DNA from: an uncultured Burkholderiales bacterium
GTDB taxonomy: Bacteria; Pseudomonadota; Gammaproteobacteria; Burkholderiales; Burkholderiaceae_C
DNA: 64,000 bases
Assembly: GCA_903887325.1 (NCBI GenBank)
Contig: CAISPG010000125.1
Coordinates: 47,152-111,151, forward strand
Direction of reading: 5' to 3'
In this document: positions 5,485-63,965 of the stretch, one piece after another
How the letters are laid out: every line of letters starts with the position of its first letter
How positions within the stretch are numbered: the stretch's first letter is position 1
Notes under the pieces: model-generated
Told to the model about the DNA's origin: nothing
Seen by the model: only the letters and a program-made list of their open reading frames with translations
Database searches by the model: none
Made by a program: the position numbers and the translations under genes

Positions 5485-5775
5485 ATGGCTACTTTGAACA
5501 CCCCTACAGCGACAGCACGACTTGAAGCCCGCATCAGCGTTGACTTGCACGCCAGCCTCAAACGCGCGGCCGAGTTGCAAGGCCGGACCATGAGCGACTT
5601 TGTCATCTCGGCGGTTCAGGAAGCGGCGCGGCTCGCCATAGAACAAGCTGATTCGGTGAAGCTGTCTGCGCAAGACCAGCAAGCATTCGCCAACGCATTG
5701 ATCAAACCGGCCAAACCCAGTGCCGCCATGAAGCGCGCCTTTGACCGCCGCAGCCGGTTGCTGGTGAATGAATGA
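5485..5775 (+). CDS. DUF1778 / TacA-type ribbon-helix-helix antitoxin
   Basis: 96-aa antitoxin candidate. Residues about 12-55 (TARLEARISVDLHASLKRAAELQGRTMSDF is the core region) match the DUF1778 ribbon-helix-helix DNA-binding fold; the C-terminal 35 residues, ending in basic SRRS-like sequence, would wrap and neutralise the toxin. The downstream GNAT gene starts inside its stop codon (ATGA overlap, 4 bases), the classical arrangement of TacAT/AtaRT pairs. A palindrome 32 bases upstream fits autoregulation. The pair lies between housekeeping genes purN and ribF, so it was probably acquired. Family call is strong by motif and context. Confidence 0.88.
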   Translation: MATLNTPTATARLEARISVDLHASLKRAAELQGRTMSDFVISAVQEAARLAIEQADSVKLSAQDQQAFANALIKPAKPSAAMKRAFDRRSRLLVNE

Positions 5776-6275
5776 GCGCTGCGTTTCGCGTCAGCAGGCT
5801 GACACCGCAAACCAACAGGGATAACTTCCATAGCGGCTCATCTGCACTTGACAGGTATTTCCACAGCCAAGTCACGCAAGACATTAAACGCAACATCACC
5901 GCCTGCTTTATTGCCAGCACAGATGAAGGCCGGGTGGCTGCGTTTTACACACTGGCGTCGGCCAGCATACTTTTGAACGATTTACCGCCGGACATCACGC
6001 GCAAACTGCCGCGCTACCCCAGTGTGCCCGCTGTGCGCATGGGCAGGTTGGCGGTAGACCAGTCTTTTCAAGGACAAGGTTTGGGCGGGGCCATGCTGGC
6101 AGACGCACTGCAACGCTGTGTTGCAGCTGAGATTGCGGCCTATGCCTTGCTGGTGGATGCCAAGGACACACAGGCCGCTGAGTTTTACGCACACCATGGT
6201 TTTATCGCACTGCCTCAACAAGCATTGACCTTGTTTCTGCCCTTAGCCTCTGTGCAAACACTGACCCGTTCCTAA
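5772..6275 (+). CDS. GNAT-family acetyltransferase toxin, TacT/AtaT type
   Basis: 167-aa GCN5-type acetyltransferase. Toxins of this family use acetyl-CoA to acetylate the amino group of charged tRNAs and stop translation. The acetyl-CoA pyrophosphate loop is QGQGLGGAM at about 97-105, following beta strand VRMGRLAVD. The Tyr of AEFYAHHGF near 137 matches the catalytic Tyr of TacT. The early FHSGSSALDRYF segment is characteristic of toxin GNATs rather than housekeeping ones. It overlaps the antitoxin by 4 bases and ends 13 bases before the DUF1653 gene. Which tRNA it would target cannot be told from sequence. Confidence 0.88.
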   Translation: MSAAFRVSRLTPQTNRDNFHSGSSALDRYFHSQVTQDIKRNITACFIASTDEGRVAAFYTLASASILLNDLPPDITRKLPRYPSVPAVRMGRLAVDQSFQGQGLGGAMLADALQRCVAAEIAAYALLVDAKDTQAAEFYAHHGFIALPQQALTLFLPLASVQTLTRS

Positions 6276-56002: not shown

Positions 56003-57469
56003 TTAACGCGGCAGTTCGCTCTCACCCATTAAGAACTGGTCGATGGTGCGTGCCGCTTGTCTGCCTTCGCGGATCGCCCACACCACCAGCGATTGACCAC
56101 GGCGCATGTCACCTGCGGCAAACACCTTGGGTACGTTGGTGATGTAACCGCTGCCTTCTTCGGTGTGTGCTTTGGCGTTGCCGCGTGCGTCTTTGTCGAT
56201 ACCAAACGCATCCAGCACAGTGGCGACCGGGTTCACAAAGCCCATGGCCAATAACACCAGATCGGCTTTGTGAATCTGCTCGGTGCCCGGCACTTCAGTG
56301 AGATTGCCGTCCTTCATTTCCACGTGAACCGTTTTCAAACCGGTGAGCTTGCCTTTGTCTCCGATGAATTCCTTGGTGGAAATAGCGAACTCGCGCTCGC
56401 AGCCTTCTTCGTGGCTGGAACTGGTGCGCATTTTGAGCGGCCAGTACGGCCAGACCAGCGGTTTGTCTTCGTGCTCGGGGGGTTGCGGCATGACTTCGAA
56501 CTGGGTGACGTGCGTCGCGCCATGGCGGTTGGATGTGCCCACGCAGTCCGAACCTGTGTCGCCGCCGCCGATGACGATGACGTGTTTGCCATCAGCTCGT
56601 AACTGGCCTTTGTAGCTGTCGCCCGCATTCACTTTGTTTTGCTGAGGCAAAAACTCCATGGCGAAATGCACGCCGTCGAGGTCACGTCCGGGCACCGGCA
56701 AGTCGCGCGATTGTTCGGAGCCGCCGGTCAACAACACCGCGTCAAATTCTTTTTTGAGCTGTTCGGCGGTCACTGTTTCTTTGGCCCAGTTGATGACCTT
56801 GCTGTCTTTGGGCCAGGCACCGACCATCACACCGGTTTTGAACACCACGCCCTCGGCTTGCATTTGTTCGACACGGCGATCGATGTGCGTTTTTTCCATT
56901 TTGAAATCGGGGATGCCATAACGCAGCAAACCACCCACCCGGTCGTTCTTTTCATACACAGTGACCGCATGACCGGCGCGAGCCAGTTGCTGTGCTGCTG
57001 CCATGCCCGCCGGGCCGGAGCCAACGACGGCCACTTTTTTACCTGTCTTCTTCGAAGCCGATAGGGGCTTGACCCAGCCCTCGGCCCAGCCACGGTCGAT
57101 GATGGCGTGTTCAATCGATTTGATACCGACTGCGTCGTCATTCACATTCAAAGTACACGCGGCTTCACAGGGTGCCGGACAAATGCGGCCGGTGAACTCG
57201 GGGAAGTTGTTGGTACTGTGCAAAACCGTCAAAGCGTTTTGCCAGTCGTTGTTGAACACCAGGTCGTTGAAATCCGGAATGATGTTGTTGACCGGGCAAC
57301 CACTGTTGCAAAACGGCGTGCCGCAATCCATGCAACGCGCGCTTTGCGTTTTGGCTTGCTCAGGACTCAAGCCGATGACAAATTCTTTGTAATGTTTGAG
57401 CCGCTCCGGCACAGGCTTGTAGCCCTCTTCGACGCGTTCAAACTCCATGAAGCCGGTGATTTTTCCCAT
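56003..57469 (-). CDS. gltD: Glutamate synthase small subunit
   Basis: 488-aa NADPH-dependent flavoprotein subunit of glutamate synthase; passes electrons to GltB. N-terminal iron-sulfur cysteines in [14 protein letters not shown] near 47-60 and CPAPCEAAC near 97-105. FAD motif [18 protein letters not shown] near 149-166; NADPH motif [12 protein letters not shown] near 299-310. A good Shine-Dalgarno AGGATCAGG precedes the ATG. Unusually, gltB is not directly upstream: a two-gene DUF4258/YgiT module lies between them. Confidence 0.97.
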
Positions 57470-57495
57470 GACCTGATCCTGTTCTTAAACTCAAT

Positions 57496-57723
57496 TTAAA
57501 CGGGTGCGTATTTACGCACACCAATCTCAACGCCATCACGTACAGATTGCTCTGCCATAGCCAGCAATTTCGTACTGATCTCTTCAGCCACATACGCCTC
57601 GCCACAGTTGGTACAGACTTGTGCTGGGACTTCTTTGAAAGCCACCACAGTCCCGGCACGCTCCAGCGTCAGTGTTGTGGTGGAAGACTCGGTATCTCCA
57701 TGCTTGCAAATCACACACTTCAT
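57496..57723 (-). CDS. YgiT/MqsA-type zinc-finger protein (antitoxin candidate)
   Basis: 75 aa from the ATG at 57723 (MKCVICKHGDTESSTTT). Two CxxC pairs (Cys3/Cys6 and Cys37/Cys40 in CTNCGEAYV) form the YgiT/MqsA zinc domain. The C-terminal helix-turn-helix of full MqsA is absent, so it cannot bind DNA like MqsA. Overlaps the DUF4258 gene by 4 bases, toxin-first order as in mqsRA. Sits between gltB and gltD. A hairpin near its 3' end precedes gltD by about 35 bases. Confidence 0.85.
   Translation of the reverse strand: MKCVICKHGDTESSTTTLTLERAGTVVAFKEVPAQVCTNCGEAYVAEEISTKLLAMAEQSVRDGVEIGVRKYAPV
57504..57519 (-). other. Hairpin at the end of the YgiT gene, just before gltD
   Basis: GTGCGT-4-ACGCAC, a perfect six-pair stem on the minus-strand transcript, followed by CCGTTTAAATT. 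It overlaps the last codons of the YgiT gene and lies about 35 bases before gltD. Might act as a weak attenuator or mRNA-stability element separating gltD from the upstream genes. Confidence 0.3.
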
Positions 57724-57992
57724 GGTTTTTTCCTCAAAAAATCCGGTGACCACAATGCAGGGTCAGGCTGGTAAACCGTGATGACGATCGTCTCACCAGT
57801 GTCTGATTCCGCCGCCAATACGTGCAAAGCCTGTTGTCCCACCCACGCGAAATACAAGGTGCTTGCATAAGGCTTGTCATCCGCATACTTAGCAACAATC
57901 TGCGCATTTTCCAGCACAGCACGTACGGAATCCGTGCTGACGCCTCGCTGAAACATGCGCTTTAACGCATGCGATGAAAAAACCAGTTTCAT
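57720..57992 (-). CDS. DUF4258 domain protein (toxin candidate)
   Basis: 90-aa protein: FSSHALKRMFQRGVSTDSVRAVLENAQIVAKY near 4-35 and LHVLAAESDTGETIVITVYQPD near 55-76 are DUF4258. Such proteins commonly pair with a YgiT-type zinc protein in the same order and are presumed toxins with a RelE/MqsR-like small fold. Starts 3 bases after gltB stop and overlaps YgiT by 4 bases, so all four genes appear to be one translation-coupled transcript. Toxicity is not proven. Confidence 0.82.
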   Translation of the reverse strand: MKLVFSSHALKRMFQRGVSTDSVRAVLENAQIVAKYADDKPYASTLYFAWVGQQALHVLAAESDTGETIVITVYQPDPALWSPDFLRKKP

Positions 57993-57995
57993 GCA

Positions 57996-60900
57996 TCAAG
58001 ACTTGACAGCTGCTTTTTTGGCTTTGGCAGCGCCGGCCGGTTTGGCCTGTGCTGCCGCCGCCATGTCGCCGAGTGCGCGCTTGTATTCGTTAGGGAACAC
58101 CTTGACGAACTTAGCGCGGGCCTCGTTCCAGTTGTCCAACAATGCCCGGGCGCGTTTGGAACCGGTCCAGCGGTGGTGGTCTTCCAGCAGTTTCTTTAAC
58201 TGCGCTTCATCGGTCAGTCCGCGGTGCCACAAAGCTAGCGGCAGGGTGTCGGTTTGTTCTTTGTCACCGAGCACTTTGTCCATGCTGACCATGGCGGTGT
58301 TGCAGCGTTGCGCGAACAGGCCGTCTTCGTCGTAAACATAAGCGATACCGCCGCTCATGCCTGCAGCGAAATTGCGGCCGGTATTTCCCAGCACGGCCAC
58401 CGTGCCGCCGGTCATATATTCGCAACCGTGGTCGCCCGTGCCTTCAACCACCGCCGTGGCACCGGACAAACGCACCGCAAAACGCTCACCGGCCACGCCG
58501 CAGAAAAACGCTTCGCCGCTGGTCGCGCCATACAACACGGTGTTACCGACGATGGTGTTGCTGGTGGCCTCACCCCGGAAATCGATGCTGGGGCGCACCA
58601 CCACACGGCCACCGGACAAACCTTTGCCGGTGTAGTCGTTAGCGTCACCGATCAAATACAGCGTGATGCCTTTGGCCAAAAACGCGCCGAAGGATTGACC
58701 GCCTGTGCCTTCCAATTGGATGCGCAATGTGTCGTCAGGCAAACCTTCGGGTCGCACCTTGGTGAGTGCGCCGGACAACATGGCACCGACCGAGCGGTTG
58801 ACGTTGCGAGCGACTTCCATGAACTGCACTTTTTCACCCTTGTCGATGGCGGCGCGGCTTTTCTCGATCAGCACTTTGTCCAGCGCCTTGTCCAAGCCAT
58901 GTTCTTGTGTCGCCACGTGGAACAAAGGCGTGCCCTCGGGCACCACGGGACGGGCCAGCAAACGGACAAAGTCCAAACCTTTGGCTTTCCAGTGTTCAAC
59001 ACCTTTTTTCATGTCCAGCAAATCGCTGCGGCCAATCAAATCGTCGAACTTGGCAATGCCCAGTTGCGCCATGATGTGGCGCACTTCCTCGGCGATGAAG
59101 AAGAAGTAATTCACCACGTGCTCGGGTTTACCGGCGAATTTTTTACGCAGCTCAGGGTCTTGTGTGGCGACACCCACGGGGCAGGTGTTGAGGTGGCATT
59201 TGCGCATCATGATGCAGCCTTCCACCACCAATGGCGCTGTCGCAAAACCGAATTCATCCGCGCCCAACAATGCGCCTATGGCCACATCGCGACCGGTCTT
59301 CATTTGGCCGTCGGTTTGCACACGAATGCGTCCACGCAATCCGTTCATCACCAAGGTTTGCTGGGTTTCGGCCAAACCGATTTCCCAAGGGCTGCCTGCG
59401 TGTTTGATGGACGACCAAGAAGAGGCACCGGTGCCGCCATCGTGTCCGGCGATCACCACGTGGTCGGCCTTGCACTTGGCCACGCCTGCGGCAATCGTGC
59501 CCACGCCAACCTCAGACACCAGCTTGACGCTGATGTCCGCATGCGGCGCGACGTTTTTCAAATCGTGAATCAGCTGGGCCAAATCTTCGATGGAATAAAT
59601 ATCATGGTGCGGCGGCGGAGAAATCAAACCGACGCCGGGCACCGAGTAACGCAGAAAACCGATGTACTCGGACACCTTGCCGCCGGGCAGTTGACCGCCC
59701 TCGCCCGGCTTGGCGCCTTGCGCCATCTTGATTTGAATCTGGTCAGCGCTGCTCAGGTATTCCGCTGTCACACCAAAGCGGCCGGAAGCGACCTGCTTGA
59801 TTTTCGAACGCAGTGAATCTCCGGCCAGCAAAGGCATATCGACTTCGACTTGTTTGTCGCCGATCACGCTCTTCAAGGACTCGCCTTGTTTAATAGGTAT
59901 GCCTTTGAGTTCGTTGCGGTAACGCGCCGGGTCTTCGCCGCCTTCGCCGGTGTTGCTTTTGCCGCCGATGCGGTTCATGGCGACAGCCAAAGTGGCGTGC
60001 GCCTCGGTGCTGATTGAGCCCAAAGACATGGCACCGGTGGCAAAGCGTTTGACGATTTCCGCTGCCGGTTCGACTTGCTCAATGGGAATGGCTTTGGCCG
60101 TATCGATTTTGAATTCGAACAAACCGCGCAATGTCATGTGGCGGCGGCTTTGGTCGTTGATGATTTGCGCGTACTCTTTGTAAGTGGACCAGTTGTTGGC
60201 GCGTGCGCTGTGCTGCAATTTGGCAATCGCGTCCGGGGTCCACATGTGGTCTTCGCCGCGTGTGCGCCAGGCGTATTCACCGCCTGCGTCCAGCATGGTG
60301 GCCAATACCGGGTCTTCGCTAAAGGCACTGGCGTGCATGCGAATTGCTTCTTCGGCGATCTCAAAAATACCTATGCCTTGCACGCGGCTGGGCGTGCCGG
60401 TGAAATATTTGTCAATCGTTTCGCTGTTGACACCAATGGCTTCAAACAATTGCGCGCCGCAGTACGACATGTAAGTGGACACGCCCATCTTGGACATGAT
60501 TTTGGACAGTCCTTTGCCGATGGCTTTGACGTAGTTGTAAATGGCTTTGTCAGCAGACAAGTCACCCGGCAACTGCGCGTGCATGCTGGCCAAGGATTCC
60601 ATCGCCAAATAAGGATGCACCGCTTCGGCACCGTAACCGGCGAGCACCGCAAAGTGATGCACTTCGCGGGCGCTGCCGGTTTCCACCACCAAACCAGCGC
60701 TGGTGCGCATGCCCTCTTTCACCAAATGCTGGTGAATCGCCGACAAGGCCAGCAACGCGGGAATCGCCACTTGCGTGGCGTTCAAACCGCGGTCGCTGAT
60801 GATGAGGATGTTGTGACCGCCTTTGATCTGATCCACCGCTTGTGCGCACAAAGATGCCAACTTGGCTTCCACACCTTCGTGGCCCCAACTCAAGGGGTAA

Positions 60901-62696
60901 GTGATGTCCAAGGTGGCGCTTTTGAATTTGCCGTTGGTCATGCTCTCGATATGGCGCAGCTTGGCCATGTCTTGGAAGTCCAGCACCGGTTGGCCGACCT
61001 CAAGCCGCATCGGCGGATTGACCTGGTTGATGTCGAGCAAGTTCGGTTTCGGTCCGACAAACGAGACCAGCGACATGACGATGGCTTCGCGGATCGGGTC
61101 GATCGGCGGGTTGGTCACTTGCGCGAACAACTGTTTGAAATAGTTGTAGAGCGATTTGTTTTTGTTGGACAACACAGCCAGCGGGCTGTCGTTGCCCATA
61201 GAGCCCAGCGCTTCTTCGCCGTTGGCCGCCATGGGGGCCATTAAGAATTTGAAATCTTCTTGTGTGTAACCGAAGGCTTGTTGACGGTCCAGCAAGGACA
61301 AGCTGGCGGCTTCGGGTGTACCGACCGGATGTTCTTCCACATCATCTAAACGGATACGCAGGTTTTCAATCCATTGCTTGTAGGGCTTGCTGTTGGCCAA
61401 ACCAGATTTCAACTCTTCGTCGTTGATCATGCGGCCTTGTTCCAAGTCGATCAAGAACATCTTGCCGGGCTGCAAACGCCATTTGCGAATGATCTTGCTC
61501 TCGGGCACAGGCAGCACGCCGGACTCGGAACCCATGATCACCAAATCGTCGTCGGTGATGCAATAGCGTGAAGGACGCAAGCCGTTGCGGTCTAAGGTCG
61601 CGCCGATTTGGCGACCATCGGTGAACACGATAGAGGCCGGGCCGTCCCACGGCTCCATCATGGCGGCGTGGTATTCGTAAAACGCGCGGCGACGCGGGTC
61701 CATGTGGCTGTGGTTTTCCCATGGCTCGGGAATCATCATCATCATGGCTTGGCTGATCGGGTAACCGGCCATGGTCAGCAACTCTAAGCAGTTGTCAAAG
61801 GTCGCGGTGTCTGATTGATCCGCAAAACTGATGGGGTACAGCTTTTTCAAATCGGCACCGAGCACAGCGGAAGCCATCACGCCTTCGCGTGCTTTCATCC
61901 AGTTGTAATTGCCTTTGACCGTGTTGATCTCGCCGTTGTGCGCCACATAGCGGTAAGGATGGGCCAGCGGCCATTCGGGGAAAGTGTTGGTGGAGAAACG
62001 CTGGTGCACCAAACCCAGCGCGGACACGCAACGCGTGTCTTGCAAATCTTTGAAATAGGTACCGACTTGGTCGGCCAGCAACAAGCCTTTGTAAATGACG
62101 GTGCGGCTGGACATGCTGGGCACGTAATACTCTTTGCCGTGCTTCAGGTTCAAATGAGAAATGGCGGCGCTGGCGGTTTTGCGAATGACGTATAGCTTGC
62201 GCTCGAGTGCGTCTTGCACGATGACATCGTTGCCGCGACCGATGAACACCTGACGGATCAAAGGCTCTTTGGCGCGTACCGTGGGCGACATGGGCATGTC
62301 TTTGTTCACCGGCACATCGCGCCAGCCCAGTAGCACTTGGCCTTCAGCGCGAATGGCACGCTCTAACTCTTGTTCACACGCCAAGCGTGACGCGCTTTCT
62401 TTAGGCAGAAACACCATGCCCACACCGTATTCACCGAAGGCCGGCAATTTCACGCCTTGCTTGGCCATGTCTTCGCGGTACAGCGCGTCGGGCAGCTGTA
62501 GCAATATGCCAGCACCGTCACCCATTAATTTGTCCGCCCCGACCGCGCCACGGTGGTCCAGGTTTTCCAGAATCTTCAAAGCTTGCGACACGATGTCGTG
62601 GCTTTTCTGGCCTTTGATATGCGCTACAAAACCCACACCGCAAGCGTCATGCTCTTGGTTAGACTGGTACAAACCCTCGGTAAACGCGTGTTGCAT
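57996..62696 (-). CDS. gltB: Glutamate synthase large subunit
   Basis: 1566 aa. Makes glutamate from glutamine and 2-oxoglutarate. I choose the ATG at 62696 rather than the GTG at 62744: a GAGG precedes it, and a promoter-like pair covers the GTG. The catalytic Cys of the glutaminase domain is in HDACGVGF after a propeptide of about 17 residues. The FMN/synthase domain spans roughly 850-1230 and ends with the 3Fe-4S cysteines in [11 protein letters not shown] near 1180. The C-terminal beta-helix domain has [17 protein letters not shown] near 1450. Ala/Lys-rich tail. Confidence 0.97.
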
Positions 62697-62732
62697 TTCG
62701 CCATCCTCTGTGTAAATCGTGCAAGGGGCGTA

Positions 62733-62761
62733 AGCATAGTCCACAGATTAGGGTTTACCAA
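62733..62761 (-). promoter_or_regulatory. Promoter candidate for gltB
   Basis: On the minus strand TTGGTA (62761-62756), a 17-base spacer and TATGCT (62738-62733), each matching four of six consensus bases. It ends 37 bases before the ATG at 62696. The palindromic repeat at 62765-62793 lies directly upstream of the -35. Read by eye. Confidence 0.4.
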
Positions 62762-62813: not shown

Positions 62814-62833
62814 AATTAATTGGGGACAGATCA
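62814..62833. repeat. RAYT-associated repeat variant, copy B
   Basis: AATTAATTGGGGACAGATCA repeats the first 12 bases of copy A, then diverges (GACAGA instead of GTCAGG). It overlaps the stop codon of the transposase, so the element boundary and the coding end coincide. Confidence 0.65.
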
Positions 62834-63529
62834 ACTATCTTCGCTGGCCTTGAAAGGTCGGCCTGCTTTGCTCTTGCTGACTCGTCTTTTGGACAAGGGC
62901 TGCAGGCTTTGCGTGAAGTCATCCTCGCCCAGCGCCCAACCACCCAAAACAGACGATGTGAGCGCGTGCTTCTTGCTTTCTTCAATGCCAGCTTGAACCA
63001 ACTCGGCATAAGCTTTTTCTCTGGCGAACGGCGTGTTGCCCAGCGCCCAATAAACATCGTGCGCCACCAACCAGTTGTCCAAACGCGCCCCGACGTAATG
63101 CGCGTGGCTGGACCACGGGTGATCCAGCGGCTGCGCCACCATGCCTGCGCGTACCGGATTCAGATCGATGTAAACCATGCAGGCCAAAAAATAGCGCTCG
63201 GTTTGTATCAGCGAGCTGCGAAACCGGCCTTCCCACAAGGTGCCGGTGCGGGCGTAACGCTGGTTGAAATAACGCACATAGTCGCGGCCCAGGTCCTGCA
63301 TCATTTTTGACAGCGCCATGTCGGCTTGCGGGGTCACCAGCACATGCAAATGGTTATCCATCAACACAAAGGCATGCAAATCCACACCGTGCTTTTGGCA
63401 AAACCCGACCAACAGCTCAAGCAGTGTTTGCCGATCGCTGTTGTCTTTGAAAATCAATTGACGGTTGTTGCCACGCAATATCACGTGGTGCGGGTAACCG
63501 GGTAATGTGAGACGGGGCAGTCGGGCCAT
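62831..63529 (-). CDS. REP-associated tyrosine transposase (RAYT, Y1/HUH type)
   Basis: 232 aa from the ATG at 63529 (MARLPRLTLPGYPHHVILRG); the 348-aa track ORF extends over the thioredoxin gene. The HUH motif is FVLMDNHLHVLVTP (His60, His62); the candidate nucleophile Tyr lies in DYVRYFNQRY near 83-92; LWEGRFRSSLIQTERYFLACMVYIDLNPVRAGM is the family signature. RAYTs cut and paste REP hairpins but rarely move themselves. Flanked by hairpin repeats on both sides. All key residues are present, so it looks functional. Confidence 0.92.
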   Translation of the reverse strand: MARLPRLTLPGYPHHVILRGNNRQLIFKDNSDRQTLLELLVGFCQKHGVDLHAFVLMDNHLHVLVTPQADMALSKMMQDLGRDYVRYFNQRYARTGTLWEGRFRSSLIQTERYFLACMVYIDLNPVRAGMVAQPLDHPWSSHAHYVGARLDNWLVAHDVYWALGNTPFAREKAYAELVQAGIEESKKHALTSSVLGGWALGEDDFTQSLQPLSKRRVSKSKAGRPFKASEDS

Positions 63530-63593
63530 GCGGCGATGGTAATGCGAGCCGATGTCGTCAGTGCGTGAAGAGTGCGCCGTTATCATGCGACAC

Positions 63594-63965
63594 ATGAATA
63601 AGCCGCCGTTTTCCCCGCCCGCCGACGGGCACGCCATGCATGTGTTTTGCCTGTGCGCGCAATGGTGCGGAACCTGTCGCGAATACCAACCTATTTTTGA
63701 GCAATTGGCAGCGCAGTTGCCCGACGTGCGGTTTGTGTGGGTAGATATCGAGGCCCATGATGACTTGCTTGGCGATCTGGATATTGAGAATTTTCCAACG
63801 CTGTTGATCGCCGATGCCCAAGGCCAAGCCAGGTTTGCGGGCACCGTGCTGCCGCACGCAGAGACTTTGCAGCGCATGTGCCAAGCGGCATTGGCCGGGG
63901 ATTTTCAATTGGTAAATGACCCCGTCTGGCAAAGCATCACACCTGAGTTGATGCGGTTGGATTAG
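63594..63965 (+). CDS. Thioredoxin-family protein
   Basis: 123 aa from the ATG at 63594; an in-frame ATG at 63585 is also possible. Thioredoxin motif WCGTC (Cys25, Cys28) in CAQWCGTCREYQPIF, WVDIEAHDD, and the cis-Pro loop IENFPTLLI near 61-69. No signal peptide, so cytoplasmic. The WCGTC centre and the extra Cys at 19 and 21 differ from Trx1 (WCGPC). Divergent from the RAYT gene with 64 bases between, and followed 10 bases later by a copy of the RAYT repeat. Confidence 0.88.
   Translation: MNKPPFSPPADGHAMHVFCLCAQWCGTCREYQPIFEQLAAQLPDVRFVWVDIEAHDDLLGDLDIENFPTLLIADAQGQARFAGTVLPHAETLQRMCQAALAGDFQLVNDPVWQSITPELMRLD

Follow-up and report, generated by a model that had tools for sequence, protein, structure and literature searches.

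A DUF4258–YgiT toxin-antitoxin-like pair situated between gltB and gltD in a Burkholderiales bacterium

Introduction

The common picture of a toxin-antitoxin (TA) module is that of a self-contained unit that regulates its own expression. There are also instances, such as relA-mazEF and dinB-yafNOP, in which TA genes are cotranscribed with, or adjoin, housekeeping genes. The pair described here differs from these in that it splits the two subunit genes of one enzyme, glutamate synthase, from which it is separated by gaps of only 3 and 26 nt, and in that occupied and empty alleles of the site are found among sister species. In the literature searched, no earlier report of a TA module inside gltBD, and no relevant paper on TA modules in housekeeping operons, was found.

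At the level of the proteins, the closest described systems are DUF4258 toxins and their fusions, MqsRA and BrnTA. DUF4258 is one of 13 BECR-fold toxin families, with its target listed as unknown, and 17 DUF4258–MqsA fusions have been recorded (PMC11980606). These have in common with the present pair the Pfam family, a predicted RelE-superfamily fold and a YgiT/MqsA-type partner; in contrast to the fusions, the two proteins are here encoded by separate genes, with the toxin first, the antitoxin devoid of the HTH half, and the whole contained within a core metabolic operon. MqsRA displays the same toxin–antitoxin order, its antitoxin has an N-terminal half like the YgiT zinc finger found here, and MqsR is among the fold matches of our toxin, although the latter is not MqsR by sequence and its partner has no C-terminal HTH. 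Finally, the DUF4258 model finds its closest structural counterpart in the ribonuclease BrnT (3u97), but no BrnA partner is present and the identity to BrnT within the fold match is 11 %.

Results and Discussion

Organization of the gltB–gltD junction

The window, a 64,000 nt stretch of an uncultured Burkholderiales genome, contains the following features at this locus.

57996..62744, minus strand: gltB, glutamate synthase large subunit, with GATase_2, Glu_syn_central, Glu_synthase and GXGXG domains (Pfam)
57720..57992, minus strand: DUF4258 protein, presumed toxin, 90 aa, ATG start (PF14076, E = 3.5e-18)
57496..57723, minus strand: YgiT-type zinc-finger protein, presumed antitoxin, 75 aa, ATG at 57723 (TIGR03831, E = 1.1e-11)
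57470..57495, minus strand: spacer of 26 nt from YgiT to gltD, with AGGA at 57480-57477
56003..57469, minus strand: gltD, glutamate synthase small subunit, ATG at 57469, with Fer4_20 and Pyr_redox_2 domains (Pfam)

The arrangement given in a preliminary description of this DNA, four minus-strand genes with gaps of 3, −4 and 26 nt, is borne out by the ORF coordinates. DUF4258 begins 3 nt after the stop codon of gltB (57998-57996), shares a 4 nt ATGA overlap with YgiT, and YgiT is in turn followed by the 26 nt spacer, which in carriers replaces an 18 nt, AAGGA-containing spacer of the empty allele. The ATG at 62696 previously taken as the start of gltB is plausible, with the upstream GTG at 62744 also possible. 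Directly upstream of gltB resides a Y1_Tnp gene (REP-associated tyrosine transposase-like; 62831-63877, minus strand) with GGAACCTGACCCC-type repeats around it; as homologues occupy the same place in relatives, this appears to be an old neighbour of gltB. The window GltD (56003-57469) is without five residues that are present in some close relatives ('SSHDEGTEKGVLKREF').

The two small proteins

The DUF4258 protein matches PF14076 with 66.1 bits (cut-off 25) across profile positions 1-70 of 71, and has no Pfam match to MqsR (PF15723), distinguishing it from the toxin of MqsRA. Its predicted structure (AlphaFold2, alignment of 31 homologues) has a mean pLDDT of 95.8, and the closest PDB fold is that of BrnT 3u97 (Foldseek probability 1.00, TM 0.58/0.65), followed by HigB2 (probability 0.95) and, lower, by a CDI toxin and MqsR (TM 0.53). 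The model thus displays the RelE/BrnT-like fold of the RelE/ParE (BECR-fold) superfamily; since the Foldseek E-values are weak (0.036 for BrnT, the best, and higher for the others), this placement leans on the probability and TM-score values, together with the classification given in PMC11980606. On the basis of the model, the protein is a presumed RNase toxin with a BrnT/RelE fold. Its residues H8, H57 and Y74 are invariant.

For the YgiT protein, the match to YgiT_finger TIGR03831 (NCBIfam) reaches 44.8 bits against a cut-off of 20.2, and the CxxC...CxxC zinc finger (C3, C6, C37 and C40) is nearly invariant. The MqsA_antitoxin profile (Pfam) covers it at profile positions 1-58 of 131 only, with 29 bits, just below the cut-off of 30, and TIGR03830 scores 28.4 against a cut-off of 61.8. 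Pfam identifies no C-terminal HTH DNA-binding domain, and the protein does not classify as an MqsA antitoxin. The DNA-binding half of MqsA is consequently missing, as had been observed before; the earlier deduction that the protein cannot autorepress is too strong, as the lack of a known HTH domain does not amount to a lack of regulation.

Both ORFs are also found at this junction in two further species, with low dN/dS (0.11-0.25 for DUF4258 and 0.05-0.09 for YgiT among the three), and are therefore more than a chance occurrence; judged by these comparisons, both are real genes under purifying selection. The faster evolution of DUF4258 could alternatively reflect relaxed constraint on a non-toxic protein. 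Across samples of the order and the phylum (399 genomes each), a YgiT-finger ORF lies directly downstream in all 27 DUF4258 matches with E<1e-10, so that the pair has the form of a type II module: its two genes are small, overlap, run in the same direction and are consistently found together. Given the confident BrnT-like fold and this invariable pairing, the reading of DUF4258–YgiT as a type II TA-like module, in which YgiT would neutralize a putatively toxic DUF4258, is well supported from sequence and model; family matches, predicted fold and pairing all uphold the initial view of a presumed TA module of a known kind.

Distribution of the pair within the family

The gltB–gltD spacing was measured in 72 genomes of the genus and for 85 junctions from other genera of the family (157 in all), with many of the relatives being incomplete metagenome assemblies. 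The usual spacing is 2-144 nt. Within the genus, 68/72 junctions are ≤144 nt (one has a value of −303, from either an overlap artefact or an extended gltB), three have the 526 nt DUF4258–YgiT form and one contains another gene. The two subunit genes are thus ordinarily adjacent, as had been supposed, and the junction comparison proposed in the preliminary description reveals presence/absence variation, with the pair in only 3/72 genus junctions. In each of the three carriers, G000 (the window genome), G045 (L036) and G476 (L037), the pair is at the same place, and a profile search of 84 genus genomes confines this DUF4258 subfamily to them. A search of 401 family genomes returned one further carrier, G080, from another genus, in which the order, read across two overlapping contigs, is gltB, DUF4258, YgiT, a 286 aa gene and gltD. 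All four family carriers, from two genera, therefore have the pair at the gltB–gltD junction. In an initial survey of good-quality genomes of the genus, 27/27 had gltD and almost none had the pair.

Other inserts are also found at this site. The 286 aa gene that follows the pair in G080 (L034:668-1528) occurs alone in the 883 nt junction of G439 (L089 / L225), the two being 73 % identical; it has a weak match to DUF5655 (E 0.0066) and is, by eye, possibly PD-(D/E)XK-like. A structure model of this gene product was too poor to use (pLDDT 41.6). A 52 % homologue exists in G464, away from gltB–gltD. Two of the 85 junctions from other genera, in G125 (L094) and G096 (L105), harbour a gene of ~115 aa, by eye of the antibiotic-biosynthesis-monooxygenase type. 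Inserts are accordingly present in 6/157 junctions, with the DUF4258–YgiT subfamily being the commonest.

History of the insertion

As rpoB is missing from the G045, G476 and G080 assemblies, the flanking gltB and gltD genes had to serve for the tree. In it, the carrier G476 has the empty G054 as its sister (support 100/99), and a single clade of the three genus carriers is rejected (AU p=0.0075). The four family pairs (G000, G045, G476 and G080) form one clade with support of 100/99. In the nearest relatives, G054 and G006, whose GltB and GltD are almost identical, the junction is unoccupied and has the 18 nt spacer. They have a TAA stop for gltB and an ATC|ATG ending, as found in most empty relatives and commonly in outgroups, whilst carriers have a TGA stop and a GGTC|ATG ending; by these sequence features the empty alleles look ancestral. 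A left-boundary string, TTGATGCAT, is common to G080, G000 and G045. Synonymous divergence of the pair (dS 0.39-0.98) is like, or somewhat above, that of gltD for the same species pairs (0.42-0.75), and the similarity to this flanking gene indicates an old resident rather than a recent arrival. Precise deletion would not readily restore TAA and ATC|ATG, and thus the simplest route would be homologous recombination that swaps the entire junction allele. The history is either that of an old junction resident with repeated loss, or of a pair transferred with its flanks. No flanking direct repeats of ≥6 nt, as a transposition scar, were detected at the insert. With regard to mobile sources, a phage origin was dismissed, searches of phage records and of viral contigs having given no match, as was a plasmid origin, for which only distant Bdellovibrio and cyanobacterial plasmid pairs were found.

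Expression signals

A scan of 57300-58400 against the sigma-70 consensus alone yielded no promoter-like site, and junctions of 3, −4 and 26 nt are too short to hold a promoter or terminator. As a candidate terminator between YgiT and gltD, the hairpin at 57522-57503 was considered (four hairpins found vs 1.2 expected) and rejected, its stem being broken in G476. A separate promoter and terminator isolating the small genes from gltBD were therefore sought in vain within this region, and the suggestion that the module borrows the promoter of its host operon fits with the lack of a promoter-like site, the lack of junction room and the lack of an HTH in YgiT. No clear Shine–Dalgarno sequence precedes the DUF4258 ATG, which, with its position 3 nt past the gltB stop, suggests translation by termination–reinitiation. 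For YgiT, GAGGA at 57735-57731, 7 nt ahead of the ATG, is a likely ribosome binding site.

From these features, one transcript from the gltB promoter would span gltB, the pair and gltD. Reinitiation at the gltB stop codon would account for translation of the toxin. The antitoxin would use the ATGA overlap together with its own ribosome binding site, making its translation stronger and independent; this could provide an excess of antitoxin without autorepression. With no DNA-binding antitoxin, no visible promoter and a position inside the genes of one enzyme, both expression and the toxin:antitoxin ratio would come from the host operon.

Related pairs at other loci

In a genus of another family (g165, family f25), a DUF4258–YgiT pair lies between genes for a PfkB-family kinase and an NAD-dependent epimerase, which, from size and adjacency, we infer to be HldA and HldD of heptose synthesis. 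The pair is carried by 2/30 species, G629 (L233) and G1257 (L235), with kinase–epimerase gaps of 644 and 584 nt, respectively; in the remaining 28 the gap is ≤167 nt. This insertion is an independent parallel of the gltB–gltD case in a second operon, and because a related pair is inserted likewise in a second core operon, such cassettes seem to settle inside functioning operons and to carry no obvious promoter. At other loci, the start of the pair overlaps the last 4 nt of a large upstream ORF (L041 and L060), lies 8 nt inside a partition-region ORF on a Bdellovibrio plasmid, or follows acyl-CoA dehydrogenase, exonuclease-family and phosphomannomutase genes at a distance of 24-44 nt. Amongst clear cases, about 14 pairs are codirectional with the upstream gene and 4 are opposite, a tally that is only suggestive, gene calling having relied on a crude coding score.

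Origin and retention of the cassette

Taken together, we consider it probable that DUF4258–YgiT is a TA-like cassette that was inserted into gltBD, is expressed by its host operon, persists through selection acting on the cassette itself and is exchanged as an allele. The ~510 bp insert would have entered precisely at the gltB–gltD boundary, as one clean unit, with the glt operon serving as a permissive, expressed landing place. Retention would be through self-maintenance by addiction and/or phage defence, and not through glutamate synthesis, whilst gain and loss between close species would probably occur by homologous recombination in gltB and gltD, swapping occupied and empty alleles.

The preliminary description had instead offered two roles tied to the host operon. 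In one, the pair is co-expressed with glutamate synthase and slows or re-tunes growth according to nitrogen-assimilation transcription. Tight in-operon spacing, the lack of an own promoter-like site and purifying selection would all suit such coupling, as would the presence of 4/4 family carriers, in two genera, at this junction; indeed, that the carriers are not scattered may speak for a site-specific benefit over a simple landing place. However, 68/72 genus junctions have no intervening gene, the nearest relatives lack the pair despite almost identical GltB and GltD, homologous pairs reside in an hld-type operon and on a plasmid, and unrelated genes occupy the gltB–gltD junction in other genomes. 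We therefore regard nitrogen tracking as improbable. In the other role, the operon is protected because cells that lose gltBD are penalized by the addiction pair, and it is true that any deletion across the junction would also remove the embedded pair. Yet gltD requires no such protection, as it is found in every good-quality genome, nearly all without the pair, and the variable part is the pair; the protected entity may be the cassette rather than gltBD, and this role is, if anything, the hardest to credit. Neither proposal is supported, since the pair is rare and patchy beside an otherwise constant operon and has relatives in unrelated operons.

A broader alternative treats the junction as a pocket open to accessory genes in general, with the pair as one cargo of no TA-specific reason, inserted anciently and lost repeatedly. 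In keeping with this are the 286 aa gene, which accompanies the pair in G080 and is the sole insert in G439, and the ~115 aa genes of G125 and G096. Such inserts are nevertheless rare and most often of the same TA subfamily, and the second tight operon with the same TA family hints at a property of the cassette and not of the site alone, which leaves the pocket unlikely, if less so than either role tied to the operon.

Extending the preferred reading of a host-expressed, self-maintained cassette, we tentatively suggest that DUF4258–YgiT represents a promoter-borrowing TA class adapted to nest between tightly spaced core-biosynthetic genes, in which upstream translational coupling would replace autoregulation and junction alleles would be exchanged. 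With the same reserve, the settings covered would be gltB–gltD, the hldA-like–hldD-like junction, and the other positions directly behind host genes. The interest of the system lies in the same insertion pattern in two operons, together with occupied and empty sister-species pairs, from a few Comamonadaceae species and another family. Such sister species, along with the independent second operon, constitute natural controls for what retains chromosomal TA genes and for effects on the host operon.

The window genome also contains a second DUF4258 copy (G000:C132:35496-35699; L220 about 5497-5942), which has an internal TAA. It is followed by a small ORF (MKIEYDPKADAMYIRM...) resembling DUF2283, and the two are probably a decayed module of another type.
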